Shown one piece after another: positions 9,756-37,931 of a DNA stretch of 64,000 nucleotides. Numbering within the stretch: position 1 is the stretch's first letter; each line of letters opens with the position of its first letter. The position numbers were made by a program, and so were the translations under genes. The notes under the pieces are model-generated. The model did not search any database. It was not told the DNA's origin and worked only from the letters and a program-made list of their open reading frames with translations. The DNA comes from Clostridia bacterium (GTDB lineage Bacteria > Bacillota > Clostridia > Oscillospirales > Acutalibacteraceae). The DNA is taken from the NCBI GenBank assembly GCA_017416765.1, contig JAFQBE010000021.1, forward strand, positions 1 to 64,000, in the 5' to 3' direction.

Positions 9756-10904
9756 ATGAAAAAGCTTATTGCCTTATCGCTTGTTCTTTTTATGCTCTGT
9801 TCATTTTTTGTTTTCAACGCAAGTGCAGAAGAAAGCGAAGAACTGACAAAGCTTTCTTTCGATGCAGACGGAAAATTCACCGTTTTGCAGATTACCGACC
9901 CGCAGGAGGATGCCTGCATAGCAGAGGGATTGATTGAGTTTATAGAAAAATCAATTGAAGCAACTAATCCTGACCTGATTGTTTTAACGGGCGATATTGT
10001 TGAAAATTCGCGTGCCGGCGATATTTCCGACAGCGAGATTTTCAAAGAGGGTGTAACCGTTGACGGCGATTATGCTGCTACCCTTGAAAACACAAAACAG
10101 GCTGTTGCACAGATTTTTGCTCCGCTTGAAAAATCGGGCATTCCCTATGCCGTAACGCAGGGCAATAATGACTACAGCAGCGAAGTTACGCTTGAAGACT
10201 GGATGAAAATTTATGCCGAATACCCCGGTTGCATTACCGCAGAATACTGTGATATGCTGTCGGGTAAGGTTGATTTTTATGTTCCCGTTTATTCTTCTGA
10301 TGATGAGCCTGCCTTTGGGATCTGGATGCTTGATAACGGAAAGGGCTTTGGCGAAGAACAGCTGAAATGGTTTAATTCATATAATAACGGCGGCGTACCC
10401 GGTGTTGTGTTTGCTCATATTCCTGTTGACGATATGGGTAACCTTTACGAAGAATGTAAAATCTGGGATGAAGGCGCATTAATCAGCGGTACAAAGGCTT
10501 ATCGCCTGAACGATGAAATAGCTATGGGTCATGCGGAAGGCGTTATTACACCCGGTGAAACAACGGAAGATTTCAAGGTTTATAAAGCCAAAAATGTTGT
10601 CGGTGCATTTTACGGCCATTGGCATACAAGCGGCTTTACCGGCGTTTGGGACGGTGTAACTTTAGGTATGACCTATGGCTGTCAGTTTTCAAAATTGGGT
10701 CCCTATGGCGTGCGTACGGTAACACTTGACGAAAAAACAGGCGCAATTGAAACCGAGCTTTATGAGTATATCGACGGAGAATTCATCGAGCAGATTGATG
10801 AACCGTACTCAGTATACGATAATGCTTTTGATAAAGCACTTGCAGGTATAATCACTTTCTTTGAAAACCTTTTCAACGCACTTAAATATGCACTGAAATT
10901 CTAA
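9756..10904 (+). CDS. Secreted calcineurin-like metallophosphoesterase
   Basis: A signal peptide (residues 1-24, ending NASA) precedes a calcineurin-like phosphoesterase domain. Metal-ligand motifs are seen in order: D48-P-Q50 in LQITDPQ, GD80 in LTGDIVEN, GNND139, FAHIP near 225, and GHWH at 287-290. The first motif is D-x-Q where D-x-H is usual; some family branches have this. The protein (382 aa) ends in FDKALAGIITFFENLFNAL and a few more residues, a hydrophobic/amphipathic helix outside the catalytic domain and like the tails of other secreted proteins here. The substrate is unknown; extracellular phosphate-ester hydrolysis is the family role. Codon use matches the flanking core genes. 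Confidence 0.85.
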   Translation: MKKLIALSLVLFMLCSFFVFNASAEESEELTKLSFDADGKFTVLQITDPQEDACIAEGLIEFIEKSIEATNPDLIVLTGDIVENSRAGDISDSEIFKEGVTVDGDYAATLENTKQAVAQIFAPLEKSGIPYAVTQGNNDYSSEVTLEDWMKIYAEYPGCITAEYCDMLSGKVDFYVPVYSSDDEPAFGIWMLDNGKGFGEEQLKWFNSYNNGGVPGVVFAHIPVDDMGNLYEECKIWDEGALISGTKAYRLNDEIAMGHAEGVITPGETTEDFKVYKAKNVVGAFYGHWHTSGFTGVWDGVTLGMTYGCQFSKLGPYGVRTVTLDEKTGAIETELYEYIDGEFIEQIDEPYSVYDNAFDKALAGIITFFENLFNALKYALKF

Positions 10905-10912
10905 TAATATAG

Positions 10913-10956
10913 ACGCTAAACGGCCAATGTTTTATCATTACTGTTTAGCGTTTTTT
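10913..10956 (+). terminator. Intrinsic terminator after the phosphoesterase
   Basis: A 9-bp stem ACGCTAAAC/GTTTAGCGT spans a ~21-base loop and is followed by six T residues. Confidence 0.8.
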
Positions 10957-11015
10957 ATAGACTTTTATTGCGTAATATGTTAGTATAAAAATGTAATAAG
11001 AAAGGGGGGAACAGC

Positions 11016-13799
11016 GTGAAAACATTAAAAAAACTTTTCTTTATCCTTGTAGTAATGTTTTTGGGTATGTTTGCTTTATGCTTTAATGTAAACGCAGAAA
11101 CAGATGGTGGATATACCTATATTGTATCTAATGGTCAGGCAACTATTACCGAAGTTGATTTTTCTGTTTCAGGTGATGTTTTTATACCAGAAACTTTAGG
11201 TGGCTTTCCTGTTACAAGTATTGGAAATATTGTATTTCGTAATCGAACGGATATTGAAAGTGTAGTGCTTCCCGATACTGTAGTAAACCTGGGTAATTCG
11301 GTCTTTTATGGGTGCAGAAATTTAATATATATAAAATTAAGCGATAGATTAGATTGTGTGGGTTCGTTAGTTTTTTATGGCTGTACAAGTTTGGAAAGTG
11401 CTTTATTACCAAATAGTTTGAAAACTGTAGGTACGGATATGTTTTCGCAGTGTACAAATCTGCGTGAGGTTACTATTGGTTCTAATCTGCATACAATTGA
11501 AAACGGTATGTTTAATGCTTGCGAAGCGCTAGAAATAATTAACGGTAGTATTAATATTCTTAAAATAGGTAGTAATGCATTTCGCGGTTGTAAAAACCTT
11601 ACAAATATAAAAATTAATCCGGAGATTTCCTATATTGGAGATTATGCCTTTGCAGATTGTAATTCATTAACTGAGTTATTTTTTGAAGATAACTTAATCT
11701 ATTTAGGTTCAGGAGCGTTTTATAACTGTAATGCTCTTAATAATATAGGTTCATTGGAAAAGTTAACAAAAATAAATTCTTATGTATTCTATAACTGCTC
11801 ATCTTTAAAAAGTATAAATATATCTGCCATAACTTCCGTAGGTGTTTACGCTTTTTATAATTGTTCATCCTTAAAAACATTAGATATATCCAAGGTAATT
11901 ACTATAGATAGTTATGCTTTTTATAACTGTACATCTATTGAAACTGTGGATATGCCTTATATTAATTCAATAGGTAATTACGGTTTTTACGGTTGTAAAG
12001 GTTTAAAATATTTGCGCATGCCAGTATCTTATATGGTGAAAAGTTCAACTGTTTTTGAAGGTTGTGAAAGTATAGAAAAGATGGTTTTTGCAGTGGGTAC
12101 GGGTGTAATGCCAGAATATAATGATCGTTATGATTATCTTATTTCTAGTTATCAAAAATATCAACCTTGGACAAAAAGTAGAAAAGAATTAACAGAAATT
12201 GTTTTTGAAGAAGGAATTACTAATGTAGGTTCATTTGCTTTTTATGATTGTTGTGAACTTAAAAATGTTGTACTTTCAAAAGAAATTACCAAAATTGGAA
12301 GTTATGCATTTAGCTACTGTTCAAACCTTGAAAGCATTACAATTTTCGAAAATGTAGAAAAAATTTGCGATAATGCTTTTATAAATATGCCATTGCTAAA
12401 AAGTATAAATGTAGATGAAAGTAACTTGCATTACAGTAGTGAAGACGGAGTGCTTTTTAACAAGGATAAAACAGAATTGATAAGGTTTCCCGAAGATAAA
12501 AAGTTGGATAAATATGTAATACCGGATACAGTATTAACGGTTAAAGAACACGCTTTCAGATATTGTAGTGGTTTAAAAAATGTAACTGTTTCGGAGAATG
12601 TTAAAACTATAGGACTATATGCTTTTGCTGACAGTTCATCGCTCAGATATGTTTATTTTAATGCAGTTAGATGCGATGACATGGACAGGATATTTGAAAA
12701 CTGCGCACTTAAGCAATTCATTCTGGGCGATAAGGTAACATATATTCCCGACTCTCCTTTTGGCCGTTGTGCAACGCTCGAATTGTTATATATACCTTCC
12801 AGTATTAAATTTATAGGTAATTATTTGTTTGAGCCGGAAGATGATATGGGCGAAAAGCTTGTTGTACAAACTGTTATTATCGAAGAAAATGCAAGAGGAA
12901 TATACAATATGGCATTTTATGCTAAAGATGTACTTTATTGTGGTAATGAAGAACAATTTGAAGATGTGTATTATTATTACGATCCTGAATGCTACGGTGA
13001 ACATGTGTTTTTCGACGCAATAATTCATTACAACTATGATGAAAACGAACCGCATATTTGGAAAAATGAAGTTATAGTTAAACCAACACAAAAAACCTAT
13101 GGTAGACTGCATTCTGTTTGTTCTTGCGGAATAGAAAAGACAGAAGAAATACCTGCTTTATATTTTGAAGTGCAAAGTTTTGTAGAGATAGACTATATTA
13201 ATAAGTATATTTATGGTTTGCGTCCGGGTTCTTGTTCGGAAATTTTAACCATGGTTGACAGCTCTTATAGTAAAGAATATATATATACCAAAAATGGGTT
13301 TGGAACAGGTACGATTGTCAAAATACGCAAAAAGTATGATTGGTTTCATGATGCTTATACCATTTTAATTTACGGTGATGTCAATGGCGATGGTTGGTAT
13401 GATGGCGAAGATGCTTTTATAGTTAATTTAATTGTTTCAGGCATTTTAAATGAAGATGATATCGGCAAAGCAGCATACAAAGCAGCGGACTGTAATCACG
13501 ACGGAGTTGTTAATGAAGAAGATGTCGAGTTGTTAAGTTTAGCCGGATTAAAAATCAAAGAAGTTGATCAAACAAATACTAATACTAATATGGTCGAAAG
13601 CACAGCATATAAAGAATATATAGGGCTTGTTGAGCAAAATGCAGAACCTTTGTATCAAGAGCCTGAAATAATAGATATTTATTCGCAAAACAATCAGCAA
13701 GTTGACGATATTGTACAGGCATATAGCATATATGATCTTGTTTTGATGGTATTTAAAGTGTTGTTAAATCTTGTTAAAAGCGTATTAAAGTTACAATAA
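11016..13799 (+). CDS. Secreted BspA-type leucine-rich-repeat protein with X-module and dockerin
   Basis: The GTG start follows AAGAAAGGGGGG. Residues 1-28 form a signal peptide. From about 35 to 640 there are many BspA-type (LRR_5) repeats of the form F-x-x-C-x-x-L-x-x-[IV], often reading YAFYNCSSLK. Residues ~725-785 form a small beta module (IDYINKYIYGL...GTGTIV...YTILIYG) followed by a two-loop dockerin: DVNGDG from 788 and DCNHDG near 828. A linker then leads to a hydrophobic C-terminal tail (DLVLMVFKVLLNLVKSVLKLQ). Dockerins bind cohesins, so the protein may be tethered to a surface complex. The gene is clearly richer in A+T than its neighbours, a possible sign of transfer. Its ligand is unknown. 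Confidence 0.88.
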   Translation: MKTLKKLFFILVVMFLGMFALCFNVNAETDGGYTYIVSNGQATITEVDFSVSGDVFIPETLGGFPVTSIGNIVFRNRTDIESVVLPDTVVNLGNSVFYGCRNLIYIKLSDRLDCVGSLVFYGCTSLESALLPNSLKTVGTDMFSQCTNLREVTIGSNLHTIENGMFNACEALEIINGSINILKIGSNAFRGCKNLTNIKINPEISYIGDYAFADCNSLTELFFEDNLIYLGSGAFYNCNALNNIGSLEKLTKINSYVFYNCSSLKSINISAITSVGVYAFYNCSSLKTLDISKVITIDSYAFYNCTSIETVDMPYINSIGNYGFYGCKGLKYLRMPVSYMVKSSTVFEGCESIEKMVFAVGTGVMPEYNDRYDYLISSYQKYQPWTKSRKELTEIVFEEGITNVGSFAFYDCCELKNVVLSKEITKIGSYAFSYCSNLESITIFENVEKICDNAFINMPLLKSINVDESNLHYSSEDGVLFNKDKTELIRFPEDKKLDKYVIPDTVLTVKEHAFRYCSGLKNVTVSENVKTIGLYAFADSSSLRYVYFNAVRCDDMDRIFENCALKQFILGDKVTYIPDSPFGRCATLELLYIPSSIKFIGNYLFEPEDDMGEKLVVQTVIIEENARGIYNMAFYAKDVLYCGNEEQFEDVYYYYDPECYGEHVFFDAIIHYNYDENEPHIWKNEVIVKPTQKTYGRLHSVCSCGIEKTEEIPALYFEVQSFVEIDYINKYIYGLRPGSCSEILTMVDSSYSKEYIYTKNGFGTGTIVKIRKKYDWFHDAYTILIYGDVNGDGWYDGEDAFIVNLIVSGILNEDDIGKAAYKAADCNHDGVVNEEDVELLSLAGLKIKEVDQTNTNTNMVESTAYKEYIGLVEQNAEPLYQEPEIIDIYSQNNQQVDDIVQAYSIYDLVLMVFKVLLNLVKSVLKLQ

Positions 13800-13841
13800 A
13801 GAATTAACGGCAGAGGTGACAAACCTCTGCCGTTAATTCTT
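13798..13841. terminator. Bidirectional terminator between the LRR gene and the acyl-CoA synthetase
   Basis: A ~19-bp stem containing TTAACGGCAGAGGT and its complement, with a five-base loop, lies between two converging genes, with A- and T-rich flanks on both sides. The ACGGCAGAG stem core recurs in the terminators at 16479-16510 and 26724-26747. Confidence 0.85.
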
Positions 13842-15496
13842 TATTTAACATTCTTGCCGAAGCGTTTGATTTTCTGTGTTGTTGTTTTTTCAAGTGCGTT
13901 TGAAAGAACTTCAACCATCTTAATATGCTTGTAGTTGGGGATTTTGCTGTTTACGCTCTTGATTGCGCTCTGAACTGCGGATTTGATTTCTTCTTCAGTC
14001 AGCTTTTTGTCGCCGAACTTTTCTTTCAGGTATTCCATGTTCGGGAAAATCTTTGCTTTAACGGTTGTTACGCCGTCTGATTCTGCGGCGCATACAAGTG
14101 CTTCGCCGATTTCGGGACACTGTGAAAGCCTTGTTTCAAGCTCTTCGGGGTAAATGTTTTTACCGTTTTCGGTAACGATAACATTTTTGATTCTGCCCTT
14201 GATGAAAAGGTCACCGTTTTCGTCCATAAAGCCGAGGTCGCCCGTGTGGAACCAACCGTCTTTAAGAACTTCTGCGGTTGCTTCGGGGTCATTGAAGTAG
14301 CCGAGCATGATGTTGTCGCCCTTTGCAAGGATTTCGCCTATACCTTCATCGTTGGGGTTGTGTATTTTAACCTGAACATCGGGAATTGCAATACCTGTTG
14401 AAGCGGCATTGAAGTGAAAATCGCCGTTGCCGGCAACAAGCGGTGCGCACTCTGTAAGCCCGTAGCCCTGAAGTGTGCGGACACCGAAGGCTGCAAAATC
14501 ATCAATAAGTGATACATCAAGCTCAGCAGCACCGACAATGAAAACGCGAAGCTTGCCGCCGAGAGTCTGTCTCACCTTTGAAATAATAACCTTGCGGATA
14601 ATCCAGGGGCATTTCTGCAATGCATCGGCTATGGGCATTGTTTCAAAATATGTTTTGTATTTTCCGGGTGCATCCTTTGCAAGCTTTGCTTTTATGCGCT
14701 TGCTGAGAATTTTAAGCAGTGCAGGTACAACAACAAGAATGGAAGGACTGTATTCGGCCATGTTCTTCTGAACCTTCGTAAGTCCGTCACAGTAGCAGAT
14801 GCTTGCGCCTCTTGTAAGGAAGAGAATGAAGTCAAGCGTACATTCGTATGTATGGTGCAGGGGAAGGATTGAAAGTGTGCTGTCTTCCTCATTTACCCTG
14901 AACATACGGCAGGTGGAGTGTATGTTGGAACAGATGTTGTACTGTGAAAGGCATACACCCTTTGAATTACCTGTAGTGCCTGATGTGAAGATGAGTATGC
15001 TCATCTGGTCTTTTTCGTATGTGATTGAGTCAATTGTTTTTGCGTCAATTGAAGAAGCGCTGATAATTGAATCAAGCTGTTCGAAATCAACATGGTACAA
15101 ATCTCTGTCAGCAATTTCTTTTATTGCCTTGTTGCGCTTAGAGTCTGTAAACACAGCGTCACACTCGGCAGCGTTTATAAAATCGTTTACATCTTGTGCC
15201 TGAAGCTCCTTATCTATCGGAACAACAATACCGACTGTAGCGGCGCAAAGGTAGGAAATAGCCCACTGAAAACAGTTGTTACCTGTTACTGCTATCCTTT
15301 TACCCATAAGCCCCTTTTCAATCATATGGGTGCAAAGGCGGTAGTAAAGGTCTTTAAGCTCCTTGTACCTGATTTCGCGGTACTTGCCTTCTTCAACCTT
15401 TACCTTGAAAGCAAGGTTGCCGCCGAAGGTTTCAGCTGCGTAGTTTACAATTTCTCTGAAATTTGAAAATCTTTTTTCTGTATATGCTTTAGCCAC
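13841..15496 (-). CDS. AMP-dependent acyl-CoA synthetase (long-chain fatty acid-CoA ligase type)
   Basis: This ANL-superfamily enzyme activates a carboxylic acid to an acyl-AMP and then to acyl-CoA. In the 551 residues the core motifs are present: phosphate loop FTSGTTGNSKG (170-180), YGLTECAP (345-352), HTGDLGFMDENG (417-428), KNIYPEELE (A8) and the C-terminal TTTQKIKRFG with the adenylation lysine. The GTG start at 15496 has GGAG five to eight bases upstream on the minus strand. A TetR regulator is divergently transcribed from the shared intergenic region, which suggests local control by a fatty-acid-like effector (inference). The acyl-chain preference cannot be determined. Confidence 0.9.
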   Translation of the reverse strand: MAKAYTEKRFSNFREIVNYAAETFGGNLAFKVKVEEGKYREIRYKELKDLYYRLCTHMIEKGLMGKRIAVTGNNCFQWAISYLCAATVGIVVPIDKELQAQDVNDFINAAECDAVFTDSKRNKAIKEIADRDLYHVDFEQLDSIISASSIDAKTIDSITYEKDQMSILIFTSGTTGNSKGVCLSQYNICSNIHSTCRMFRVNEEDSTLSILPLHHTYECTLDFILFLTRGASICYCDGLTKVQKNMAEYSPSILVVVPALLKILSKRIKAKLAKDAPGKYKTYFETMPIADALQKCPWIIRKVIISKVRQTLGGKLRVFIVGAAELDVSLIDDFAAFGVRTLQGYGLTECAPLVAGNGDFHFNAASTGIAIPDVQVKIHNPNDEGIGEILAKGDNIMLGYFNDPEATAEVLKDGWFHTGDLGFMDENGDLFIKGRIKNVIVTENGKNIYPEELETRLSQCPEIGEALVCAAESDGVTTVKAKIFPNMEYLKEKFGDKKLTEEEIKSAVQSAIKSVNSKIPNYKHIKMVEVLSNALEKTTTQKIKRFGKNVK

Positions 15497-15525
15497 TATT
15501 ATTCTCCTTTTTTCTTATTGACAAA

Positions 15526-15554
15526 ATAACACGCATTAGGTATCATTTTATCAA
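15526..15554 (-). promoter_or_regulatory. Promoter of the acyl-CoA synthetase gene
   Basis: On the minus strand TTGATA (15549-15554) and TGTTAT (15526-15531) are 17 bp apart, upstream of the GTG at 15496. Confidence 0.65.
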
Positions 15555-15602
15555 CACTGTGTTTGAATTTCAACAGTCAGTTTTTTTGATAAAGCTGAAT
15601 TG

Positions 15603-15627
15603 CCGACACTTTTTGTCAGTTTGTCGG
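15603..15627. promoter_or_regulatory. Candidate TetR operator in the divergent region
   Basis: CCGACA at 15603-15608 and TGTCGG at 15622-15627 form an inverted repeat about 30 bases before the TetR start. TetR-family proteins usually bind such palindromes near their own promoter. The assignment is inference. Confidence 0.4.
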
Positions 15628-15657
15628 TAAATTTGAGGTGAAAAGAGGTTGAAAATT

Positions 15658-16218: not shown

Positions 16219-16223
16219 TATGA

Positions 16224-16460: not shown

Positions 16461-16471
16461 CACCGACGAAC

Positions 16472-24760: not shown

Positions 24761-24799
24761 AACGCAGGTCAACTTCATTGTGAAGCACCTGCGTTTCTT
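24761..24799. terminator. Terminator, probably bidirectional
   Basis: A 9-bp stem AACGCAGGT/ACCTGCGTT with a 17-base loop is followed on the plus strand by TCTTTATTTTT. It lies immediately after the stop codon of the minus-strand small gene at 24799. Confidence 0.75.
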
Positions 24800-24987
24800 T
24801 ATTTTTCTGCTCTTTTATGCTTTTTTGCCAAGCCCTGCGCTATTGCGGGAAAGGTGTTATCCGTATCGTTGGTGGGCTGAACATTGCACCTTCCGTACTT
24901 TGTCACCATGTCAAAAGAATCTTCTTCAATTTCATTGTGAGATAGCTTTGCTTTCTTGGTTTCAATATTATAATCCTTCAAAATCAT
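24799..24987 (-). CDS. Small hypothetical protein (62 aa)
   Basis: A minus-strand frame with ordinary amino-acid composition encodes a 62-residue acidic N-terminal half (HNEIEEDSFDMVTKYG) and a polar end (DTDNTFPAIAQGL, then KKHKRAEK). I used the ATG at 24987, which has AACGGTG just before it; an earlier ATG at 25044 has no ribosome site. Its stop abuts a terminator shared with the converging operon, which is what a real gene would show. The family is not recognised. There is no signal peptide or transmembrane segment. Moderate confidence, since it rests on context and composition only. Confidence 0.5.
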   Translation of the reverse strand: MILKDYNIETKKAKLSHNEIEEDSFDMVTKYGRCNVQPTNDTDNTFPAIAQGLAKKHKRAEK

Positions 24988-25102
24988 CACCGTTATGTAT
25001 TTTTTGAAAATAGTGTGACAATATGCGTTGGAATTTATATACATTTAACATTGCAATTTTATGCAGAGTTTTGTATAATGCAGAAATATAAAGTGAAAGT
25101 AA

Positions 25103-25277
25103 CAAATTACAGTTTATTTAAGTGCAGAGTTCAGAACGCAGAACGGTGGGAGGGCTACGCCCTCACCCATTGTAATAATCGCTTTAAACCAACATTATAT
25201 AAATTCGGAGCGAAGCGACCCTTCGTTCTGCACTCTGCACTCTGCGTTCTGCATTCAATCAGATAAACTGTAATTTG
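25103..25277. repeat. MITE-like element with 15-bp perfect terminal inverted repeats, copy 3 of the hairpin-module family
   Basis: CAAATTACAGTTTAT at 25103-25117 is the exact reverse complement of 25263-25277. Inside lie a second inverted pair (GTTCAGAACGCAGAACG and CTCTGCGTTCTGC), a GGAGGGC-tac-GCCCTC hairpin followed by ACCC, and CGGAGCGAAGCGACCC. No ORF with a ribosome site lies within. The right end abuts the ribosome site of the following transporter gene. The rest of 24988-25102 shows no further gene. Confidence 0.8.
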
Positions 25278-26872: not shown

Positions 26873-28630
26873 ATGAAATTCAGAAGAATAATCAGCATTG
26901 TTCTTGTGCTGGCTATGGTGCTTTCCGTTACTGCTTTTGCAAACGGTTCAGGCTATGTTGCCGATTACGATACGGAAACTCCGGTAATTATTGTTCACGG
27001 CATGAGTCAGAACAATACCTACCTTGTTGATGAAAACGGCAATTGGGTGCCTGATGAAACAGGCTATGTAACAGGCTGGCCGCTTGAAATTGATGTAATG
27101 CCGCTTGTAAAAAGAGCGTTGCCGAATATGCTCGCTTCAATTGTAACAAGGCAGGATATCGGCCTTACACAGGCTATGTACGAAGGTACATACAACGCAC
27201 TCAGCCTTGTTGAAAGAAACAACGATGGTACATATAAGAATAATATTGTTGTACCTTGCTATGAAATGCCCATGAGCGAGCTTCCTGAAGCAGTAAAAGC
27301 CGAATACTACAGCTTCCTTCCCATTCAGGAGCTCAGCGAAATAGTCGGTGAAGACGATGTTTACTATTTCGGTTATGATTCACTTGGCGATGTAATGTAT
27401 GAAACAGAAAAGCTTCATCATTACATTCACGATGTTGTTCTGCCCAAGTCACCAAACGGTCAGGTTAAGCTCTGCCATATCAGCCTTGGCGGCACAATCG
27501 CAGTAAATTACCTTGAAACCTATCCTGAAGATTATGAACTCATCCGCAAGATGGTTTTCGTTATTCCTGCTATTGACGGTTCAAACATCATCGGTGACCT
27601 TCTTACAGGTAACCTCAGCGTTTTCTATGATGACAACACTCTTTACGAAGACCTTTTAGTTACTCTCATGGGCGAAACTCCGCTTGCATACTTCCTCAAT
27701 ATGGTGCTCCGTATTTTACCCGGCGATGTACTCAAGTCTGCTCTTTCCGGTCTTGCAAACGGTCTTGTCGATGTTGCCGCACTCCGTTCAACAATGATAT
27801 GGGCGCTGTGTCCTGATGCTTACTATGCCGAAGCTAAAAAAATGTGGCTTGATGGCAACGAAGACCTTGCAGGCATTCTTGCAGATGTTGAATACTTTAT
27901 GAATGCACGCGCAAACTTTGAAGAAAACCTCTTTGCACTCCGCGATACAGGCTGTGAAATTTTCAACCTTGCCTGCTACGATGTACCTCTTTTCCCGCTT
28001 TGCAAGGATTACAAAACAACCAACGCAGACCGCGTTATTCATGCCGCATCGCCCGCAATGGGTGCAACCTTTGCTAACCTCGGCGAAACACTCGGCGAAG
28101 GCTACAAGGTTGCAGGCACATACTGCAATAATCCGAACCACAACCACCTTTCACCCGATGGTGTAGTTGATGCAACAACAAGCCTTCTTCCCTGTACAAC
28201 ATGGTTCTTTAAGGCACAGGCGCATGAGCAGCTTCCGCAGAATGATGTTGCGCTCGGTCTTGCAATCAGAGCTATGGCAGACGATAATATGAAGGATGTT
28301 TATTCAAATCCTGCTTATCCGCAGTTCAACGAAGGCAGACTTACCCATAACGCAGTCAACAACATGAAGGCATGGGAAGCAGCAGATAAGAGCGGTATCG
28401 GCGCTGAAAAGGTTGCCGCGGTTGAATCTGCAATAGCTCAGATCAATGCTCTTCTCAATGAAACGATAGTTGACCAGGCTGCATGGAATGCAGCGGATGC
28501 CGTATTAGAAAAAGCACTTGTTGATGCAGGTGTAATTGAAGATGAAGCTCCGTCAGCTGTTGAAAATGTGCTTACTTCTGTGCTTCGTACACTCAACAGA
28601 GGAATAAATAAAATTTATTCAATGTTCTGA
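26873..28630 (+). CDS. Secreted lipase/esterase-like alpha/beta hydrolase with C-terminal tail
   Basis: A signal peptide (residues 1-24, ending AFA) precedes an alpha/beta-hydrolase domain. PVIIVHGMSQNN near 40 supplies the oxyanion-side HG; the nucleophile is Ser204 in CHISLGG, where G-x-S-x-G has become H-x-S-x-G. YFGYDSLGDV precedes it, as in cytoplasm-to-surface lipase families. A catalytic His is probably in NHNHLSPDGVVD near 425. The last ~110 residues add a helical region (VAAVESAIAQINALL...) resembling a FIVAR-like segment, ending in AVENVLTSVLRTLNRGINKIYSMF, a hydrophobic/amphipathic tail. At 585 aa it is larger than classic lipases. The substrate is unknown. It converges with sigK, with only two bases between stops. 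Confidence 0.8.
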   Translation: MKFRRIISIVLVLAMVLSVTAFANGSGYVADYDTETPVIIVHGMSQNNTYLVDENGNWVPDETGYVTGWPLEIDVMPLVKRALPNMLASIVTRQDIGLTQAMYEGTYNALSLVERNNDGTYKNNIVVPCYEMPMSELPEAVKAEYYSFLPIQELSEIVGEDDVYYFGYDSLGDVMYETEKLHHYIHDVVLPKSPNGQVKLCHISLGGTIAVNYLETYPEDYELIRKMVFVIPAIDGSNIIGDLLTGNLSVFYDDNTLYEDLLVTLMGETPLAYFLNMVLRILPGDVLKSALSGLANGLVDVAALRSTMIWALCPDAYYAEAKKMWLDGNEDLAGILADVEYFMNARANFEENLFALRDTGCEIFNLACYDVPLFPLCKDYKTTNADRVIHAASPAMGATFANLGETLGEGYKVAGTYCNNPNHNHLSPDGVVDATTSLLPCTTWFFKAQAHEQLPQNDVALGLAIRAMADDNMKDVYSNPAYPQFNEGRLTHNAVNNMKAWEAADKSGIGAEKVAAVESAIAQINALLNETIVDQAAWNAADAVLEKALVDAGVIEDEAPSAVENVLTSVLRTLNRGINKIYSMF

Positions 28631-31108: not shown

Positions 31109-31137
31109 TTGAATTGTCATAACCCTTGTGTTATAAT
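31109..31137 (+). promoter_or_regulatory. Sigma-A promoter of the GPH symporter gene
   Basis: TTGAAT at 31109-31114 and TATAAT at 31132-31137 are separated by 17 bp. The -10 context CTTGTGtTATAAT resembles the 16-mer at 26795 and 33188. Confidence 0.75.
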
Positions 31138-31168
31138 TACTAAAAATGTTGAGCGGGAGGTAATGTTT

Positions 31169-32761
31169 TTGGCTAAAAAAGATACGGCAGAACAGGCCGT
31201 TCAATACGACGAAGGCTTTTATGCCAAACAGAACAGACGTTATGTAGGTACAAAAGAAACGGTCGGCTATGTTATTTTCGATATGGCACAGAGTTTCAAT
31301 ATCAATTCCTACTCCGAGCGATTTATAACAACAATTTTCAAAATGGACCTCGGCTTGCAGGCTGTGGCAAATCTTATCAACAGTATCTGGGATATTATTA
31401 ATGATACTTTTTCCGGAGCTATTGTTGATAAGACCCGTACCCGTTGGGGTAAATTCAAGCCGTACCTTGTTGTTCTTGGCATTCCGGGTACAATTGCTAC
31501 CTGCCTTTACTGGTTGATGCCTGCCATTTTCCCGAGTGCAAGCTCAACCTCAATGGCGAAGTTTTTCTTCTACCTTGTTCTTGCCATTCTTCGCGAAACC
31601 GGCGGCACCTTCCGCGGCTTTGCTCAGACCGGTATGTTGGCTACCATAACGCCTAACCCCATTGAGCGAACGCGTCTGATTACTCAGGCTCAGTTCTTCT
31701 CAGGCTTCCTTGGTGAGAACCTGCCGCAGCAGATTATGGACCTTGTTCTTGACCTTATCGGTAACCAGATTATCGCAAAAGGTAAGTTTGAAACAGCTTA
31801 TCGCGGTGTGTTTATGGGTATGGGTGTCTTTACATCACTCGTCAGCGGTATTGCGGCACTCTGGTTTGCTACAATGGCAAAAGAGCGTGTTATGCAGTCA
31901 ATTGAAACCCCGAGCATTAAAGAGGGTATTAAGTCCATTGTCAACAATAAGCCGATTCTGCTGCTTACTCTTTCCGATACGCTCAGCAGCTTCTCGCTGT
32001 TCAGCGGCAGTAAGAAGGACTACTTTATCGATGTTCTCAACTTTGCAAGCCTTGGTAACATCGTCGGTATCCCCGGCGCGATTGTTCACCCGTTCTCCTA
32101 TGCTCTTGTTCCGTGGTTCCGCAAGAGAATGTCAACGCGAGCTCTTGCAATTTTAGGTAAGTACAGTATAGATATTACATATATTCCCGTATTCCTGCTT
32201 GGCTGTATCGGCGGCAAGAAAAACGGTCTGTATAAAAAGGTAATACCTATGGGTATTGCTCTTGCACTTCAGGAAACATTCTATATGTTCTTCTATGGTG
32301 TTCGCCATGTTATTCCCAGCGAAATGTATAACGAAGCTATGGACTACTGCGAATGGAAAAACGGCTACCGTACAGAGGCTATGACCTCTGCAGCAAAGGG
32401 CCTTGCGCAGAAGCTTTCCGGTACCTTCAGTAACTTCCTTAAAACCTTGTTCAAAAAGTGGATTGGTTACGATATCAATGCCTATGCCAGCGGCTCTGCA
32501 CAGACGGACGATACAAAATTCTGGCTGTTTGCTATGTGTACTGTTCTTCCGCTTATCACAACAACCTTCGGTATTATTCCGCTTCTGTTCTATGATCTTT
32601 CAGGTAAAAAGCGCGATAAGATGTATGAAGAGCTTCTTGCTCGCCGCGCAATGATGGCTTCCGAGGTTACAGCCGGTGATGCTGACGCACTTGATAAGGT
32701 TAAGGCACAGCAGAAAGCAATTTCCGAAGAAGATAAAAACATAAATGACTTCTTAAAATAA
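31169..32761 (+). CDS. GPH-family (MelB-like) sugar:cation symporter
   Basis: The glycoside-pentoside-hexuronide family imports sugars with Na+ or H+. The signature DKTRTRWGKFKPYLVVLGIPGTIATC lies near residue 90, and about 12 membrane helices are visible in 530 residues. The start is uncertain: TTG at 31169 has GGGAGG eight bases upstream, while ATG at 31163 is only two bases from it, so I prefer TTG. Codon use is strongly biased (CTT, AAG, CGC), suggesting high expression. No glycosidase is adjacent, so the sugar is unknown. The small secreted protein gene follows 38 bases after the stop, probably on the same transcript. Confidence 0.88.
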   Translation: MAKKDTAEQAVQYDEGFYAKQNRRYVGTKETVGYVIFDMAQSFNINSYSERFITTIFKMDLGLQAVANLINSIWDIINDTFSGAIVDKTRTRWGKFKPYLVVLGIPGTIATCLYWLMPAIFPSASSTSMAKFFFYLVLAILRETGGTFRGFAQTGMLATITPNPIERTRLITQAQFFSGFLGENLPQQIMDLVLDLIGNQIIAKGKFETAYRGVFMGMGVFTSLVSGIAALWFATMAKERVMQSIETPSIKEGIKSIVNNKPILLLTLSDTLSSFSLFSGSKKDYFIDVLNFASLGNIVGIPGAIVHPFSYALVPWFRKRMSTRALAILGKYSIDITYIPVFLLGCIGGKKNGLYKKVIPMGIALALQETFYMFFYGVRHVIPSEMYNEAMDYCEWKNGYRTEAMTSAAKGLAQKLSGTFSNFLKTLFKKWIGYDINAYASGSAQTDDTKFWLFAMCTVLPLITTTFGIIPLLFYDLSGKKRDKMYEELLARRAMMASEVTAGDADALDKVKAQQKAISEEDKNINDFLK

Positions 32762-32799
32762 TTATTAATTACAATTTTTATTAATAGTGCGAGGTAAAA

Positions 32800-32985
32800 A
32801 TGAAAAAGATTAAAAAGTTGTTTGTTGGTATGGCAGCGACAGGTGCAGTGTTAAGTACAGCGGCAATTAATTCATTTGCTGCTACGGTTGATTTGCCGGA
32901 TGCTTTTGCAAATTTGTCGCCGATTATCGAAATAGTTTTAAAAATAGTTGAGTTTATTTCAAAAATAATCAGCTTTTTTTCCTGA
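32800..32985 (+). CDS. Secreted micro-protein: signal peptide plus hydrophobic helix (61 aa)
   Basis: The ATG follows GCGAGGTAAAA. Residues 1-28 form a signal peptide (KKIKK, hydrophobic core, SFA-A). The mature ~33 residues are an acidic start (TVDLPDAFANL) and a hydrophobic/amphipathic helix (SPIIEIVLKIVEFISKIISF). That helix closely resembles the C-terminal tails of the phosphoesterase, LRR, lipase and giant proteins, so this gene encodes such a tail alone. The gene lies between the symporter and a strong terminator, and ends before the giant surface protein. Possibilities are a small toxin-like or membrane-active peptide, or an accessory of the tail-bearing proteins. No function can be assigned. 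Confidence 0.75.
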   Translation: MKKIKKLFVGMAATGAVLSTAAINSFAATVDLPDAFANLSPIIEIVLKIVEFISKIISFFS

Positions 32986-32989
32986 ATTT

Positions 32990-33020
32990 ATGCGGGCAGT
33001 TAAACTGCCCGCATTTTTTT
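32990..33020 (+). terminator. Terminator after the micro-protein
   Basis: A strong ~11-bp stem ATGCGGGCAGT/ACTGCCCGCAT with a tiny loop is followed by seven T residues, just after the stop. Confidence 0.9.
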
Positions 33021-33028
33021 GGCTTAAT

Positions 33029-33078
33029 AATCGAATTACAGTTTGTCTGTCTGTTGACAGACAAACTGTAATTCGATT
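33029..33078. repeat. Perfect 23-bp palindrome with 4-base loop
   Basis: Positions 33029-33051 are the exact reverse complement of 33056-33078, with loop TGTT. The arm begins AATCGAATTACAGTTT, sharing AATTACAGTTT with the terminal repeats of the element at 25103-25277. No T-run follows, so it is not a standard terminator. The gene-free stretch 32986-33320 otherwise holds the terminator above, AT-rich sequence and the promoter below. Confidence 0.9.
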
Positions 33079-33170
33079 GCTAAAATCAACCATATTTTCC
33101 TAATGAGATTTCTTTGTTGCAATATTAACTATTTTTTTAAAAAATTATTAAAAAAATATTGCATTTTGAC

Positions 33171-33199
33171 TTGTCAGGTTGATTTCTTTGTGATATAAT
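33171..33199 (+). promoter_or_regulatory. Promoter of the giant secreted protein gene
   Basis: TTGTCA at 33171-33176 and TATAAT at 33194-33199 with a 17-bp spacer and TGA before the -10 (extended -10). The surrounding TTGTGATATAATCGCA matches 26795-26810. The leader to the ATG is ~115 bases. Confidence 0.7.
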
Positions 33200-33320
33200 C
33201 GCAGTGCATAATAGTGTAATTGTATACCTATAGGTGTCCTTACATTATTATATTACATATATTAATTAAAGGCATTTTTGAAGAAAAATCCTACAAACAA
33301 AACCGGAGGTGCATTTTTTT

Positions 33321-36300
33321 ATGAAAAAAATGAAAAAACTCTTGTGTGTTCTCCTTGCGTTTGTAATGATGTCAAGCTCAGTGACTATCGGCGCATCCGC
33401 TATAGTTGATTACACACAGCCCGACCACTACAACAGCCTCGGTAAGCCCGTTTACAGCTACGAGCAGTCCTGCTCAATGCTTCTTGACTGGCTCGATGCT
33501 CTGTTGTACGAGATGAACATCCACGAAAATATTGACATTGTTGTTGCTAAGATTGACCTTAACTTAACATCAATCAACAACACCTATGCTTCAATTGACG
33601 AACTGCTTGATATGGCACTTGTTGGATTTGCTGATGCATTCAGCATTCTCGGCGACATTACCGACCTTAACAAGGACGCTATTGCAGATGTAAGACGCGG
33701 CGACCAGTATGCCGACTCTCAGGTATTCTATGCCCTTCTTCAGTTCCTGTATGACAATGCAGCTCTTCTTGAAAAGCTTGTCAATACAACACTTGATTGG
33801 GGTCTTCTTGATACCTTCCTTGCTCCGGAAGATTATCCCTACCTGTTCGATCTGCCCAACTTCCTCAAGGAAATGATTTATGTTGCCCTTTACAACGGCA
33901 TGATAAAGCCCGAATCTGCAGCCGAAATTGAAAAGGTTTCCGAAATAGGTCTTACGCTTGACGATTTCACAATCGACGGTGTTCTCCAGGATCTTGTTGA
34001 TTCACTTCTTATCGGTGATTATAACGTTTCCACCCAGTCCTACACAGGCTTCCTTCCCAGCATGGCAGGTAAGACCTCCATCACAGTCGGTTCTACATAT
34101 GACCTTATCCAGAATGCAATCGACGCACTGATGGCTGATATCCTTGTTCCCATGCTTATGGATATGCTTCCCGAAGTTCTCGGCTTCGAGATTAACGAAG
34201 AATGGCCTCTCGGTAATCCAGCGGTTCCCGGCCTTCTCCAGACTATCGTCGGTGTTATGAACGATATGCTCGGTCTCGGCTATGAATACGATGAAGAAGA
34301 ATATACCGTTGTTGAGCTTGAGAAGCTTCTCACATGGCTTCTTGTTGGTGAAGAAAAAGTCAACGAATCAGGCGATGTCTACAAGACCTCTGCTGCTCTT
34401 TACAACATTATTGCCTTTACCGACCACGGTATCGACATCAATGATGAGCTTTACATCACCATCGGCGAGCTTCTCCGCAGCCTTGGTCCCGGTCTCATTC
34501 AGATGATTTTCTCTGATGAAATTTCCGAAGAAGACATAGAAGGCATTAACTGGGAAGGCACAACAACAGACGAATTTATTTCCGAAGTTGTCAAGATGAT
34601 TATTCCCATGGTTCTTCCCGATGTCCGCTTCCTTCCCGATTGCGATACAGTTCAGGAATGCCTTACTTATATACTTATCAGCCTTGTTATCGACATTCTT
34701 CCCGAAAATGACTACTACGGCATGATTAATGCAGGTCAGCTCAATCCCGAAGACGGTGCATGGATTGAAGTTGGTACAGACTACCTTATCTACCTTCTCA
34801 ACTCTATGCTCGATATCAACATTCCTTCACACGCAAACTTTGATATGCTTGTTAGCTATCTTGCTGACTGGATTATTAACAACTATGGCTTTATTGCCAA
34901 CACAAGACAGGACTTCGCAAACATGAACGGCTGGGAGAAGCTTGACAACATCATCTTCACGCTTCTTGACTCTTCACTTCTCACAATTCAGAGAACAAAG
35001 CCGACAGTTTCCGAATCACTTATTAAGGATACTATCCTTGGCGGTGTTCAGGAGTTCAACATTGAGAAGATTCTCAGCTTCATCGGCAGAAACTCCTCTC
35101 CCGATGCTATCCTTAACCTCAGCCTTGTTGATTTCGTTATCAACCTTCTCGGCCGTGTTCTTTCTCAGCTCATGAAGGGCAAGGAAATCATTCCTGCCCG
35201 CGCAACACGCCTTGAAACACTTATTGTTGGTGAAGGCGGCATGGTTCTCGGCGATTTCGTCTATAACCTGCTTACATCTCTTTACACAGAAAGAGAATAT
35301 AACTTCCCGACACTTATTCCGCTTATCGGTTCTCTTATCGGTCTTGCAGCAAACGACAACTATACAGTTTACGCTCCTGCAGGCTACCCCAACAAGTCCA
35401 TCAAGGATCTTCAGACCCTTATGAACCAGTTCGTTCCCGATAACGGTAACCTCAAGTATTACGAAGACGGTTACTTCACAATAGGTGAAGAAGACTACGA
35501 GCATCTTTACGAATATGAAGAGTTTATGGATACCTATGAGGACTGTGAATCTCTTATTGAAAAGTACAGAACAGCTCCTTACGAAGTAACAAACCTTGAT
35601 ATCAAGAACCTCTACTACAGACTTGGTTACTACTACGAAAGACTTACACCCAGAGCTGAACTCTGCAAGACTCAGGTCTTCCGTGAAATCAATTACACAA
35701 CCAAGAATACACCCGCAGAAAATGCTGATGAAAACGGCGATAAGATTTACTCCGACCGTTCATGGCGTCTTTTCCAGGAAGCTCTTGCTTATGCTCAGCA
35801 GGTAAACGCTTCCGATTCAGTAAAGCAGTCACAGCTTTCTAAGGCAAGAAAAGAACTCTTCACAGCCTTCAATCAGCTTAAAGAGTATACTGCACTCGGT
35901 AACTACAGAGTTCTTGATGCTCTTATTGCACAGGCAGAAGCCATCCCCGAAGAAGACTACAAGCTTTACACAACAACATCTCTTACAATGTTCAAGGATG
36001 CTTATAACGCAGCTGTAAACCTTGACCGCGACTATGACAGAGATGACCAGCAGATTATCAACGATGCTGTTACAGAGCTTTCAAACGCTCTTACAGGTCT
36101 TGCACTCTGGGAAATCAACTACGAACTCGGTGCAGATATTATTATTGATTCTGTTCTTACACAGGGTAACAATACTGTTCTCAAGTTCAAGGAAGCCAGC
36201 GGCGCAGCAATTGCAGATGTTTCTGCAACAGTTGACAACGGTGCTGTTATCGGCGAAATGTACGAAGAAAACGGCTACTACTGCTGGGATATTACAACAG

Positions 36301-37931
36301 GTAGTGCACCGCTTTACTCCGTAATCACCGCTACAATCTCCTTCACACAGCCTTCAACCGGCAAGAATTACTCCGCTAAGGCATATACATTCGTTTCCGC
36401 AACAGATGAAATCCTTATTGATGTAAATACCTGCCAGCCCGGTTATGTGCGTAACCCCTACACACTTGCAGTTTACGGCATCAACGATTGCAGTACGGAT
36501 TATGTTAAGTACCATGTTGACCACGACGGTACAACTAATGCCGGCCTTATGGCTACAATTCCCACAGCAGTCATTTATGTTGATAAGAGCATGTACACAG
36601 ACCTTTCACAGGTTCCCGGTCTGATGTTCACAATGACTAAGGATGCTTCCACTTATACATCCGGCTATATCGGAAGCGGTGTATTTGCAGGCATCAATGT
36701 TAATGTAACATCTTCCGATCCTACAATTACAGTAACTCCCGATTCCTACGATGTTACACTTAACCAGACAGATGTTAAGAACTTCACATTTGCAGGTAAG
36801 GTTCCCGATGCAGGCGCATCTGTAACAACTCTTATTACACCTACAGTCAATGCTACTGCTACAAACGGCGGTGCAACAGTTTCTTATCCGCAGTTCTACC
36901 TTCGTGTAAATGCATACGATAAGTCAGCACTCCGTGCAACAGTTTCCGATGCTATCGCAGCATGCCGTCAGAGCTGGTTCTATTCAGGCGGTTGGGACAT
37001 CTACACTAAGGACCTTCAGAATGCTGTTAATGTTCTTAACAACCCGCTTGTAAGCCAGCTTCAGATTGATGAAGCTAACGAAAACCTTATTGAAGCTATC
37101 CAGTGGCTTGAATATGCTACAGCAGACTATAAGGAACTTCACAAGCTTATTTCTGTTGCAAACTCTCTCAATCCTTATGACTATGAAGACTTCAGTGCAG
37201 TTTCCGTAATTCTCAACGGTATTGATTACGAAAAGGGTCTGCTTGAGCAGTCAATTATTGACGAAACAGTTGAAAACCTCAGAGCTGCAATTGATGCTCT
37301 TAAACCCGCACAGAGCATGATTTATATCCGCTGCTTCGAAAAGAACGGCGCAGAAATCACAGCAAACGCAGAAACAGTTGTTTCACTTGATGACGGTACA
37401 AATGTACAGCTCATCTCCTCCGATGTAATTTACGGTAACGTCGGTGAAAAGGTTATCATCAACGTACCTTCAATCATGGGTTACTCATCAACAGACAAGC
37501 AGAAGCTTGTAACAATCACAAACGATGGTGTAGTTGTTGAATTCTACTATACAGCTGATGAGTACACAATCCGTCTTAACTCCAACGGCGGTAAGGTTGA
37601 TACAACATCCGTTACAGTTAAGTACGGTCAGACCTATGCTGACCTTCCCGTACCCACACGTTCCGGTTACGATTTCGCAGGATGGTATAACAAGCTTTCC
37701 GGCGGTATTAAGGTTGATGAAAACGTTAAGGTTACAACAAGCCCCTACAGAACACTCTATGCTCACTGGGAAGAAGCAGTTGTAACAGAGTCCACCGATG
37801 TTCAGGTTGATTCCGCAACAGATAATGCACCCGAAATTGATACTCCTGCAGAAGTATCAATCTTCGACAGAATCGTTGCATTCCTTTCACAGATTATCGG
37901 TCTTCTCCTTTCAAATGTTTTCGGTATCTGA
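33321..37931 (+). CDS. Giant secreted surface protein (1536 aa) with FIVAR, MucBP-like and Flg_new-type modules and hydrophobic tail
   Basis: The ATG at 33321 is used; GGAGG lies 11 bases upstream and overlaps an in-frame GTG at 33309. A signal peptide (1-27) is followed by ~700 residues rich in Leu, acidic and helical, without a recognised domain. Then come two coiled/helical FIVAR-like segments (about 830-930 and 1200-1330), an Ig-like beta region (about 940-1200), a MucBP-like stretch (about 1330-1415) and one Listeria-Bacteroides (Flg_new-type) repeat (about 1416-1485: YTIRLNSNGG, GYDFAGWY, TLYAHW). The C-terminus is an acidic linker and a hydrophobic tail (IFDRIVAFLSQIIGLLLSNV). There is no LPxTG. 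Strong codon bias (AAG, CTT, CCC) indicates very high expression, like an S-layer-type or adhesin protein (inference). Confidence 0.85.
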   Translation: MKKMKKLLCVLLAFVMMSSSVTIGASAIVDYTQPDHYNSLGKPVYSYEQSCSMLLDWLDALLYEMNIHENIDIVVAKIDLNLTSINNTYASIDELLDMALVGFADAFSILGDITDLNKDAIADVRRGDQYADSQVFYALLQFLYDNAALLEKLVNTTLDWGLLDTFLAPEDYPYLFDLPNFLKEMIYVALYNGMIKPESAAEIEKVSEIGLTLDDFTIDGVLQDLVDSLLIGDYNVSTQSYTGFLPSMAGKTSITVGSTYDLIQNAIDALMADILVPMLMDMLPEVLGFEINEEWPLGNPAVPGLLQTIVGVMNDMLGLGYEYDEEEYTVVELEKLLTWLLVGEEKVNESGDVYKTSAALYNIIAFTDHGIDINDELYITIGELLRSLGPGLIQMIFSDEISEEDIEGINWEGTTTDEFISEVVKMIIPMVLPDVRFLPDCDTVQECLTYILISLVIDILPENDYYGMINAGQLNPEDGAWIEVGTDYLIYLLNSMLDINIPSHANFDMLVSYLADWIINNYGFIANTRQDFANMNGWEKLDNIIFTLLDSSLLTIQRTKPTVSESLIKDTILGGVQEFNIEKILSFIGRNSSPDAILNLSLVDFVINLLGRVLSQLMKGKEIIPARATRLETLIVGEGGMVLGDFVYNLLTSLYTEREYNFPTLIPLIGSLIGLAANDNYTVYAPAGYPNKSIKDLQTLMNQFVPDNGNLKYYEDGYFTIGEEDYEHLYEYEEFMDTYEDCESLIEKYRTAPYEVTNLDIKNLYYRLGYYYERLTPRAELCKTQVFREINYTTKNTPAENADENGDKIYSDRSWRLFQEALAYAQQVNASDSVKQSQLSKARKELFTAFNQLKEYTALGNYRVLDALIAQAEAIPEEDYKLYTTTSLTMFKDAYNAAVNLDRDYDRDDQQIINDAVTELSNALTGLALWEINYELGADIIIDSVLTQGNNTVLKFKEASGAAIADVSATVDNGAVIGEMYEENGYYCWDITTGSAPLYSVITATISFTQPSTGKNYSAKAYTFVSATDEILIDVNTCQPGYVRNPYTLAVYGINDCSTDYVKYHVDHDGTTNAGLMATIPTAVIYVDKSMYTDLSQVPGLMFTMTKDASTYTSGYIGSGVFAGINVNVTSSDPTITVTPDSYDVTLNQTDVKNFTFAGKVPDAGASVTTLITPTVNATATNGGATVSYPQFYLRVNAYDKSALRATVSDAIAACRQSWFYSGGWDIYTKDLQNAVNVLNNPLVSQLQIDEANENLIEAIQWLEYATADYKELHKLISVANSLNPYDYEDFSAVSVILNGIDYEKGLLEQSIIDETVENLRAAIDALKPAQSMIYIRCFEKNGAEITANAETVVSLDDGTNVQLISSDVIYGNVGEKVIINVPSIMGYSSTDKQKLVTITNDGVVVEFYYTADEYTIRLNSNGGKVDTTSVTVKYGQTYADLPVPTRSGYDFAGWYNKLSGGIKVDENVKVTTSPYRTLYAHWEEAVVTESTDVQVDSATDNAPEIDTPAEVSIFDRIVAFLSQIIGLLLSNVFGI

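Follow-up and report, generated by a model that had tools for sequence, protein, structure and literature searches.

Amphipathic C-terminal tails as probable membrane anchors across unrelated families of exported proteins in an uncultured gut bacterium

Known C-terminal anchors and the tailed proteins of the window

The closest described counterpart of the tails considered here is the C-terminal amphipathic helix of E. coli PBP5, which is a proven membrane anchor (PMC2909392). Like PBP5/DacA, our proteins are predicted to have a signal peptide, an extramembrane body and an amphipathic helix over the last ~18-20 residues; unlike it, they present the tail on many bodies without an S11 or PBP5_C domain. 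The preliminary description of this DNA suggested that the tail could be a signal that it could not name, but its kind is known, as PBP5-type carboxypeptidases often have a similar tail, those of this lineage included. Among S11 D-Ala-D-Ala carboxypeptidases of the lineage, which are related to E. coli PBP5, 17 of 29 pass the looser variant of our tail rule (at least 9 bulky residues in 18; the 9-of-18 rule) and 12 fail it, and the ends of 20 dereplicated members have a helical moment of 0.34 compared to 0.23 when shuffled. The tails are more hydrophobic than the S11 ends (0.79-0.93 vs 0.62), a comparison in which two of the three tail sets were picked for hydrophobicity and the third, the phosphoesterase set, was not. 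Protein bodies in the window, by which we mean the whole 64,000-nucleotide stretch analysed, match Metallophos, LRR_5 plus dockerin, FIVAR/List_Bact_rpt or nothing, and none matches S11 or PBP5_C. These proteins are not members of the PBP5 family and the likeness is merely one of "works like" PBP5.

In PEP-CTERM/exosortase systems a short C-terminal signal is likewise found on many unrelated exported proteins; no family of this type was among the NCBIfam matches (E up to 1) of seven window proteins. The LPXTG/sortase system is similar in that a C-terminal element is common to unrelated exported proteins and serves surface retention (here proposed), but the window tails have neither a motif nor a basic end, and the earlier statement that LPxTG is absent holds for all five proteins concerned by inspection. 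The genome has 2 sortase matches, and a scan of the genome sample for LPxTG-type motifs found one signal-peptide protein (L007:17633) without the rest of the signal; its neighbour, L007:16533, has a PDTG-like motif, a TM segment and RKKED at the end, and is possibly a genuine substrate of sortase. Single C-terminal TM anchors of Gram-positive surface proteins share a hydrophobic C-terminus with the tails, but those seen in this genome mostly end K/R-rich after the hydrophobic segment, whereas in the window the tails lack this ending and one face of the helix is polar. Finally, we looked for a lipobox; in none of the six window proteins does a Cys follow the predicted cleavage site.

The five proteins and their tails lie where the preliminary description had placed them, the stretches ending 0-3 residues before the stop, and all five have a signal-peptide-like N-terminus by our crude rule, as had been claimed. 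All are on the + strand. The first is a predicted exported calcineurin-like phosphoesterase (9756..10904; 382 aa) with a signal peptide, a Metallophos domain at residues 42-291 and the tail ALAGIITFFENLFNALKYALKF (10836..10901; 10/18 bulky residues at the end, moment 0.55), whose hydrophobicity is matched or exceeded by 23 of 572 cytosolic C-termini. It is followed by a predicted exported BspA-type LRR protein (11016..13799; 927 aa) with a dockerin at residues 786-840 and the tail YDLVLMVFKVLLNLVKSVLKLQ (13731..13796; 12/18, moment 0.43), which only 2/572 cytosolic ends match or exceed. A predicted secreted micro-protein (32800..32985; 61 aa) consists of a signal peptide and ~34 further residues that are mostly tail (SPIIEIVLKIVEFISKIISFFS; 32917..32982; 11/18, moment 0.60; 4/572), and has matches in 6 of 11 genomes of the genus, its own included, and in none of 48 other genomes searched (E 0.01). 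The giant protein (33321..37931; 1536 aa from the ATG; predicted exported) has FIVAR and Listeria-Bacteroides repeat matches and ends in FDRIVAFLSQIIGLLLSNVFGI (37863..37928; 11/18, moment 0.38; 2/572).

For these four the description of the tails as hydrophobic and amphipathic stands, but it does not extend to the fifth, a predicted exported lipase-like protein (26873..28630; 585 aa) with no Pfam match at E 0.01. Its weak tail, ENVLTSVLRTLNRGINKIYSMF (28562..28627), has a moment of 0.64 but fails the hydrophobicity rule at 8/18 bulky residues, and 267/572 cytosolic C-termini match or exceed it. The family has at least 11 matches in this genome, and two (L102, L103) of the protein's six closest same-genus orthologues reach the 9-of-18 rule. 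A small predicted exported protein of 120 aa (1511..1873, + strand), proposed as a weaker sixth case, has 9/18 bulky residues in its best window (11/572) and so passes the 9-of-18 rule only, not the full one. All six satisfy our rule for predicting signal peptides. A C-terminal TM anchor should be uniformly hydrophobic over ~19 residues, and by our own rule five of the six tails are not TM-like; that of the giant protein is, as is, outside this set, that of L078. Over the window as a whole, 4 of 10 secreted-type calls pass the tail rule, some of the 10 being doubtful. A dockerin protein at 37996-41136 of the window has no tail.

Enrichment, position and periodicity of the tails

Our main sample was 1.11 Mb of the same genome with the window itself left out; the second came from relatives and consisted of the flanks of 80 named contigs. 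Genes and signal peptides were called by crude rules of our own, not by SignalP. The tail rule required that: (i) at least 10 of 18 residues be F/I/L/M/V/W/Y, no more than 8 residues from the stop; (ii) there be no Pro beyond the first two positions and at most 3 Gly; and (iii) the helical moment be at least 0.25. In the main sample 18/127 secreted-type proteins were tailed vs 9/572 cytosolic proteins (odds ratio 10, P 2e-8). With stricter signal peptides the counts were 14/68 vs 7/514, and in the flanks from relatives 12/119 vs 4/361, so that the expected excess of tails on secreted over cytosolic proteins was borne out in both samples. The secreted set includes false members such as L053:5455-8634 (1059 aa), probably a carbamoyl-phosphate synthase. 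Tails also belong to the very end of the protein. When the same secreted proteins were cut back by 40 residues, 1/120 passed vs 18 at the true C-terminus, and in the second sample 3/114 vs 12. Among the other classes of the genome sample the rule was passed by 13/82 polytopic, 5/41 signal-peptide-plus-TM and 2/67 single-TM proteins.

The secreted proteins with tails fall into 26 BLAST clusters, of which a few are doubtful. Tailed bodies include metallophosphoesterases, BspA LRR plus dockerin, lipase class 3, carboxylesterase-like, VgrG3-like, exo/endonuclease-phosphatase fold, pectate-lyase-like and GLUG plus dockerin proteins. We also checked whether each tail falls within the known fold of its family; whenever a body domain has a Pfam match, the tail is not part of that domain, and in three cases it follows a dockerin. 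As the genome has 10 cohesin matches, the tail need not be the only anchor of the dockerin proteins.

Helical periodicity is evident as well. The last 18 residues of the five window tails, as a set, have a 100-degree moment of 0.52 vs 0.23 +/- 0.05 when shuffled, and in three tail sets picked without a moment filter the periodicity was maximal at 90-100 degrees, with 0, 1 and 0 of 500 shuffles reaching the 100-degree value. As a control we took 160 TM helices from the interior of polytopic proteins, and their moment was barely different from that of shuffles (0.189 vs 0.178; 24/500 shuffles reached it). We do not take the moment alone as sufficient evidence, since hydrophobic cytosolic C-termini (18/572 with a mean hydrophobicity of at least 0.7) also exceed their shuffles (0.286 vs 0.209), much as is to be expected of a helix at the surface of a globular core; amphipathicity by itself is therefore not specific. 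Tails from the named contigs (n=27, not dereplicated) are slightly acidic (K+R 0.81 and D+E 1.22 per 18 residues), which weakens an argument based on lipid charge, and in the micro-protein tail the acidic and basic counts are equal. The acidic or Ser/Pro linker that had been suggested as part of the signal did not hold up, as the 30 residues before the tail are close to the body in composition in both sets (D+E 16% vs 13% and 14% vs 15%; P/S/T/G/N 33% vs 30% and 34% vs 28%).

The phosphoesterase family as a natural swap

Tail sequences are hardly conserved among the phosphoesterases, the one family that we studied in depth by sequence comparison. At the named loci 68 of 75 exported homologues meet the 9-of-18 rule, and the dereplicated tails (n=48) have a moment of 0.47 vs 0.22 shuffled, with K+R 1.73 and D+E 0.60 per 18 residues. 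The phosphoesterase domain is ~49% identical (2,390 pairs below 60%) and yet tail identity is near background, at 0.26 vs 0.21 for shuffled tails (all 2,775 pairs); the "-LKF" ending is conserved among closer homologues only. We saw no common sequence motif in the tails. No PDB relative of the phosphoesterase was found at E 0.001.

We also compared 32 homologous frames found in relatives, of which 17 have a signal peptide and 15 do not. Of those with a signal peptide, 13/17 score as amphipathic-tailed and 16/17 are not TM-like, whereas by the same rule 12/15 of those without one end TM-like. Two of these 12 (L083, L090) satisfy the 9-of-18 rule too and were counted as TM. The family thus offers a natural swap between exported members with an amphipathic tail and non-exported members with a predicted TM-like end, and this makes the idea of a membrane anchor directly testable.

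Membrane contact, alternative readings and range

We favor the possibility, to which we assign a probability of roughly 0.62, that the tails are PBP5-like C-terminal amphipathic membrane anchors that serve, independently of sortase, as a general means of retention in a lineage of gut Clostridia. The protein would be exported by Sec, as the signal peptide suggests, and the signal peptide would then be cleaved; the last 18-25 residues would form an alpha-helix with a broad F/I/L/V face and a narrow polar face; and this helix would lie in the outer leaflet of the cytoplasmic membrane, such that the enzyme or adhesin is held near the membrane-wall interface and does not diffuse away. Many unrelated bodies would in this way be attached in the PBP5 mode rather than through sortase, a lipobox or a transmembrane anchor. 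Helix formation, membrane binding and retention as the purpose are what we infer from the tails. Of the roles raised in the preliminary description (sorting, membrane contact or self-assembly), the evidence is strongest for membrane contact; the tails have common physics but no sequence motif was found in them, which makes it unlikely that a dedicated machine reads them as a sorting signal.

It is conceivable, if unlikely, that the tails form helical bundles, either among themselves or with the micro-protein or a surface protein, and so build a surface layer or complex. The micro-protein is almost a free-standing tail, and some tailed surface proteins also have a dockerin while the genome has cohesin matches, but pairwise docking would need sequence conservation, of which the phosphoesterase tails show little, and about 10-11 bulky hydrophobic residues in 18 is above what is typical of a two-stranded coiled coil. 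The replacement of the tail by a TM-like end in most paralogues without a signal peptide also points to the membrane. That the membrane is reached through ordinary C-terminal transmembrane anchors, merely amphipathic in appearance, we consider improbable. The tail of the giant protein, among others, does have TM-like hydrophobicity, TM plus K/R anchors end other exported proteins of the genome (some at cohesin matches) and, as noted above, our rule passes some membrane-protein ends. Nevertheless, tail moments exceed those of the TM-helix controls, charges fall inside the window-tail helices with no basic cluster following, and the rule that calls most phosphoesterases without a signal peptide TM-like does not do so for nearly all of those with one; on the moments and the phosphoesterase ends we mostly reject simple TM anchors.

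There is still less to recommend the possibility that every tail is the final helix of its own fold. Amphipathic periodicity is also a property of cytosolic C-terminal helices, and such a reading fits a few passing proteins, e.g. the L241 and L235 clusters, which resemble the last helix of their own fold. It sits poorly with the enrichment on exported proteins, the near-absence of tails 40 residues inward, the position outside Pfam body domains and the contrast between conserved phosphoesterase domains and near-background tails. It seems very improbable that the tails act as a degron or as a signal for processing, such as a nonpolar C-terminus recognised by exported proteases of the Tsp/CtpA or HtrA type; these proteases favour nonpolar C-termini, but tails of 18-25 residues with helical periodicity are longer than a short degron would need, and large repeat proteins carry them too. 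We also doubt a composite model in which convergent, interchangeable tails act with cohesin-dockerin pairs, independently of sortase and lineage-wide, to hold exported proteins in a shared membrane-surface layer, the micro-protein being a partner or occupancy regulator.

With regard to range, the family sample outside the genus gave 4/39 vs 6/218 by 10-of-18 (P 0.048), with G025, and perhaps G080, convincing by eye. The order sample gave 2/32 vs 3/174 (P 0.17; 9 of 18 gives P 0.022) and the phylum sample 2/29 vs 6/222 (P 0.23; 11 of 18 gives P 0.036), the four passers in these two samples resembling TM ends or a false signal peptide. As the samples outside the genus are small, we claim no limit of range. 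FWQKIxxFFKNLF-type tails are common in other Oscillospirales proteins. In the titles and abstract starts of the open-licence PMC papers that our searches listed we found no description of a general tail of this kind; a word search of a 2018 review of monoderm surface display (PMC5817068) did not return "amphipathic", and in a 2025 minireview on Gram-positive protein trafficking (PMC12445088) the word occurs once, for SecE.

Judged from their sequences, many exported proteins of this uncultured gut bacterium, though unrelated to each other, are probably held on the outer face of the membrane by a short one-sided greasy helix. The trick is already known from a cell-wall enzyme; here it would be applied to many kinds of protein. 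Programs that predict location seek LPxTG, a lipobox, TM segments or wall-binding domains, and an exported protein with such a tail would be classed as freely secreted. Since about a fifth of the strictly called exported proteins in the genome sample are tailed, many enzymes and adhesins of gut bacteria may be assigned to the wrong location.

Occurrence of the tails on exported proteins

The genome comprises 2.77 Mb in 47 contigs, and the window corresponds to contig C45:1-64000. The preliminary description had named five exported proteins that end in a hydrophobic/amphipathic tail, and all five were found where it had placed them, the quoted stretches stopping at most 3 residues before the stop codon. 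They are a calcineurin-like phosphoesterase (9756-10904), a protein with BspA-type LRR and dockerin domains (11016-13799), a lipase-like protein (26873-28630), a micro-protein (32800-32985) and a giant protein bearing FIVAR and Listeria-Bacteroides repeats (33321-37931); three proteins (lipase-like, micro-protein and the weaker sixth candidate at 1511) had no Pfam match at E 0.01. The exported lipase-like family (window 26873-28630; loci L097-L126) lacks a Pfam match and is expanded: this genome has 11 or more matches, and the family is present in 23/117 genomes searched (E 1e-20). Elsewhere in the window, 24780-25266 holds only short ORFs, with a small gene on one side and a DcuC-type transporter on the other, and the gene at 43608-44618 encodes DUF1016_N and YhcG_C (PDDEXK nuclease).

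A further 60 stretches of this genome (1.11 Mb) were sampled, with genes and signal peptides called by simple rules. A tail was scored when an 18-residue stretch ending no more than 8 residues from the stop held at least 10 bulky hydrophobics, provided that it had no more than 3 Gly, no Pro beyond its second position and a helical moment of at least 0.25. For proteins 60 aa or longer encoded outside the window, and counting as secreted those with a signal peptide and no other TM segment, tails were commoner on secreted than on cytosolic proteins (18/127 versus 9/572; odds ratio 10.3, P 1.7e-8). These counts retain some cytosolic passes that resemble cut or mis-started secreted proteins (e.g. 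L031:22, L027:18951) and some false secreted ones (e.g. L053:5455). With bulky thresholds of 8, 9, 11 and 12 the odds ratios were 1.8, 3.8, 19.8 and 16.6, and when the secreted proteins were shortened by 40, 60, 100 or 150 residues, 1/120, 5/119, 0/110 and 2/100 passed. With strict signal peptides and proteins of at least 100 aa, 14/68 passed versus 7/514 cytosolic (P 1.5e-9); shuffled mature proteins of this strict set passed in 40/1360 trials. Membrane proteins also satisfied the rule (13/82 polytopic, 5/41 signal-peptide-plus-TM and 2/67 single-TM).

The result was replicated in relatives. A profile search of genome contigs with the phosphoesterase alignment yielded 87 relatives, of which 80 named loci were used; the best matches are metagenome assemblies (Clostridia, Oscillospiraceae and Ruminococcaceae bacterium), mostly from ruminant gut according to their titles, and the window's own species possibly lay outside the search. 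With 82 phosphoesterase homologues and proteins shorter than 60 aa already excluded, the set comprised 849 proteins (612 dereplicated), in which 12/119 secreted versus 4/361 cytosolic passed (odds ratio 10, P 2.5e-5), with the reservation that these are related species and protein families may be common to both samples; after shortening by 40 residues, 3/114 secreted proteins passed. Under the same rule the figures were 4/39 versus 6/218 in other genera of the family (P 0.048), 2/32 versus 3/174 in other families of the order and 2/29 versus 6/222 in other parts of the phylum. The trait looks concentrated in the window's genus and some related genera, the outgroup samples being small and setting no firm limit.

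The bodies that carry tails are varied. When 383 secreted proteins (from the own genome and window, the named loci and the family sample) were stripped of their last 40 residues and grouped by single linkage, 193 clusters resulted, 26 of which have a member passing the 10-of-18 rule, a few doubtfully; the LRR and giant proteins share one cluster of 37. Body domains were sought with Pfam in 15 of the 18 own-genome proteins that pass and in one S11 protein that does not (L055:1151). Those detected were LRR plus dockerin, GLUG plus dockerin, S11 plus PBP5_C, lipase class 3 with DUF6273, DUF6273 alone, two Abhydrolase_2, a second metallophosphoesterase, exo/endonuclease-phosphatase, VgrG3-like and pectate-lyase-like, and 5 of the 16 had no Pfam match. 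At L200:18653-18841, a 62-aa ORF without a signal peptide has a tail-like helical end and may belong to a longer protein or a mis-called one.

Amphipathic character and the PBP5 counterpart

For tails picked without the moment filter, the hydrophobic moment was highest at 90-100 degrees. At 100 degrees it reached 0.306 in own-genome tails (n=32) versus 0.213 +/- 0.019 in shuffles; the values were 0.278 versus 0.204 for named-locus tails (n=27, not dereplicated) and 0.472 versus 0.221 for tails of phosphoesterase homologues (n=48, dereplicated). In 160 polytopic proteins the internal TM helices gave 0.189 versus 0.178. Counting against an anchor, cytosolic C-termini with a mean hydrophobicity of at least 0.7 (18/572) also exceeded their shuffles (0.286 versus 0.209), so that the moment alone is not proof of membrane binding; equally hydrophobic secreted C-termini, selected by the same procedure (31/127), gave 0.318. 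Net charge is positive in phosphoesterase tails (K+R 1.73 versus D+E 0.60 per 18 residues), slightly positive in own-genome tails (1.53 versus 1.06) and slightly negative in named-locus tails (0.81 versus 1.22).

There is a counterpart in the C-terminal amphipathic helix of E. coli PBP5, described as a membrane anchor (PMC2909392). A frame could be used in 29 of 30 S11 loci drawn from this genome and its relatives; 17 of these 29 ends pass a 9-of-18 rule, two of them (L277 and L279) reaching a count of 10, and the moment of 20 dereplicated ends was 0.335 versus 0.233 shuffled. S11 ends and window-type tails are the same kind of object, although the latter are more hydrophobic (mean 0.62 for S11 ends versus 0.79 for unselected phosphoesterase tails). 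Pfam detected no S11 domain in the window proteins; judged from sequence, their tails would work like the PBP5 anchor, which is not to claim that they are PBP5. The tails form a real pattern whose principal axis is membrane contact, with binding predicted. We favor the possibility, at a probability of roughly 0.6, that the tails are a PBP5-type amphipathic anchor in general use.

The phosphoesterase family

The phosphoesterases offer a natural experiment. We compared 32 homologous frames from 30 loci, among them the frame of the window and those of close members of its genus, two loci having two frames each (L081 carries its two in tandem). Of 17 frames with a signal peptide, 13 were amphipathic-tailed, 3 were helix-like but failed the rule and 1 was TM-like; of 15 without one (L079, L081-L083, L085-L090, L092, L094-L096), 12 had TM-like ends, two of which (L083 and L090) also satisfy the tail rule, and 3 were of neither type. 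In most of these 15 the catalytic domain starts near the N-terminus; L088 has a hydrophobic stretch ahead of it and L092 is ambiguous. A membrane-type C-terminus therefore tends to persist with or without export, its type differing, and exported and non-exported phosphoesterases may both be membrane-bound.

Among the 82 homologues at the named loci, 75 have a signal peptide by our own rule (371-419 aa) and 68 of these pass the 9-of-18 rule; the seven excluded comprise one that was too short and six without a signal peptide by that rule, four of which (L187, L224, L225 and L232) are nevertheless tail-ended. For the 2,390 pairs whose domains are less than 60% identical, mean identity was 49% in the domain and 23% in the tail, and tail identity over all 2,775 pairs was 0.26 versus 0.21 for shuffled tails. 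The physics of the tail is therefore retained more than its letters.

Possible retention modes and the micro-protein

This genome also has two sortase matches, ten cohesin matches and some exported proteins ending in a C-terminal TM segment plus K/R; the tail is therefore one of several possible retention modes. Dockerins also occur at window 37996-41136, and the window dockerins together with the ten genome-wide cohesin matches suggest a cohesin-dockerin system; the proteins at two cohesin matches (L013:10469-11539 and L057:9444-10412) end in a TM plus K/R anchor. Dockerin and tail coincide on the window LRR protein, L033:6375 and L043:861, which would give such proteins two potential means of attachment.

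The micro-protein (61 aa) consists of a signal peptide, with only a Phr_nterm match below cut-off, and a tail. It was matched (E 0.01) in 6 of 11 genus genomes, including its own, and in 0 of 48 others (59 searched). Its gene adjoins that of an MFS_2 sugar transporter (window 31109-32761) in all 6 (window; L022-L026), directly downstream and co-directional in 4 and convergent in 2, the transporter in the relatives having been identified by eye from sequence ends. The micro-protein could be either a membrane-surface peptide acting on the MFS_2 transporter or a free partner of the tails.
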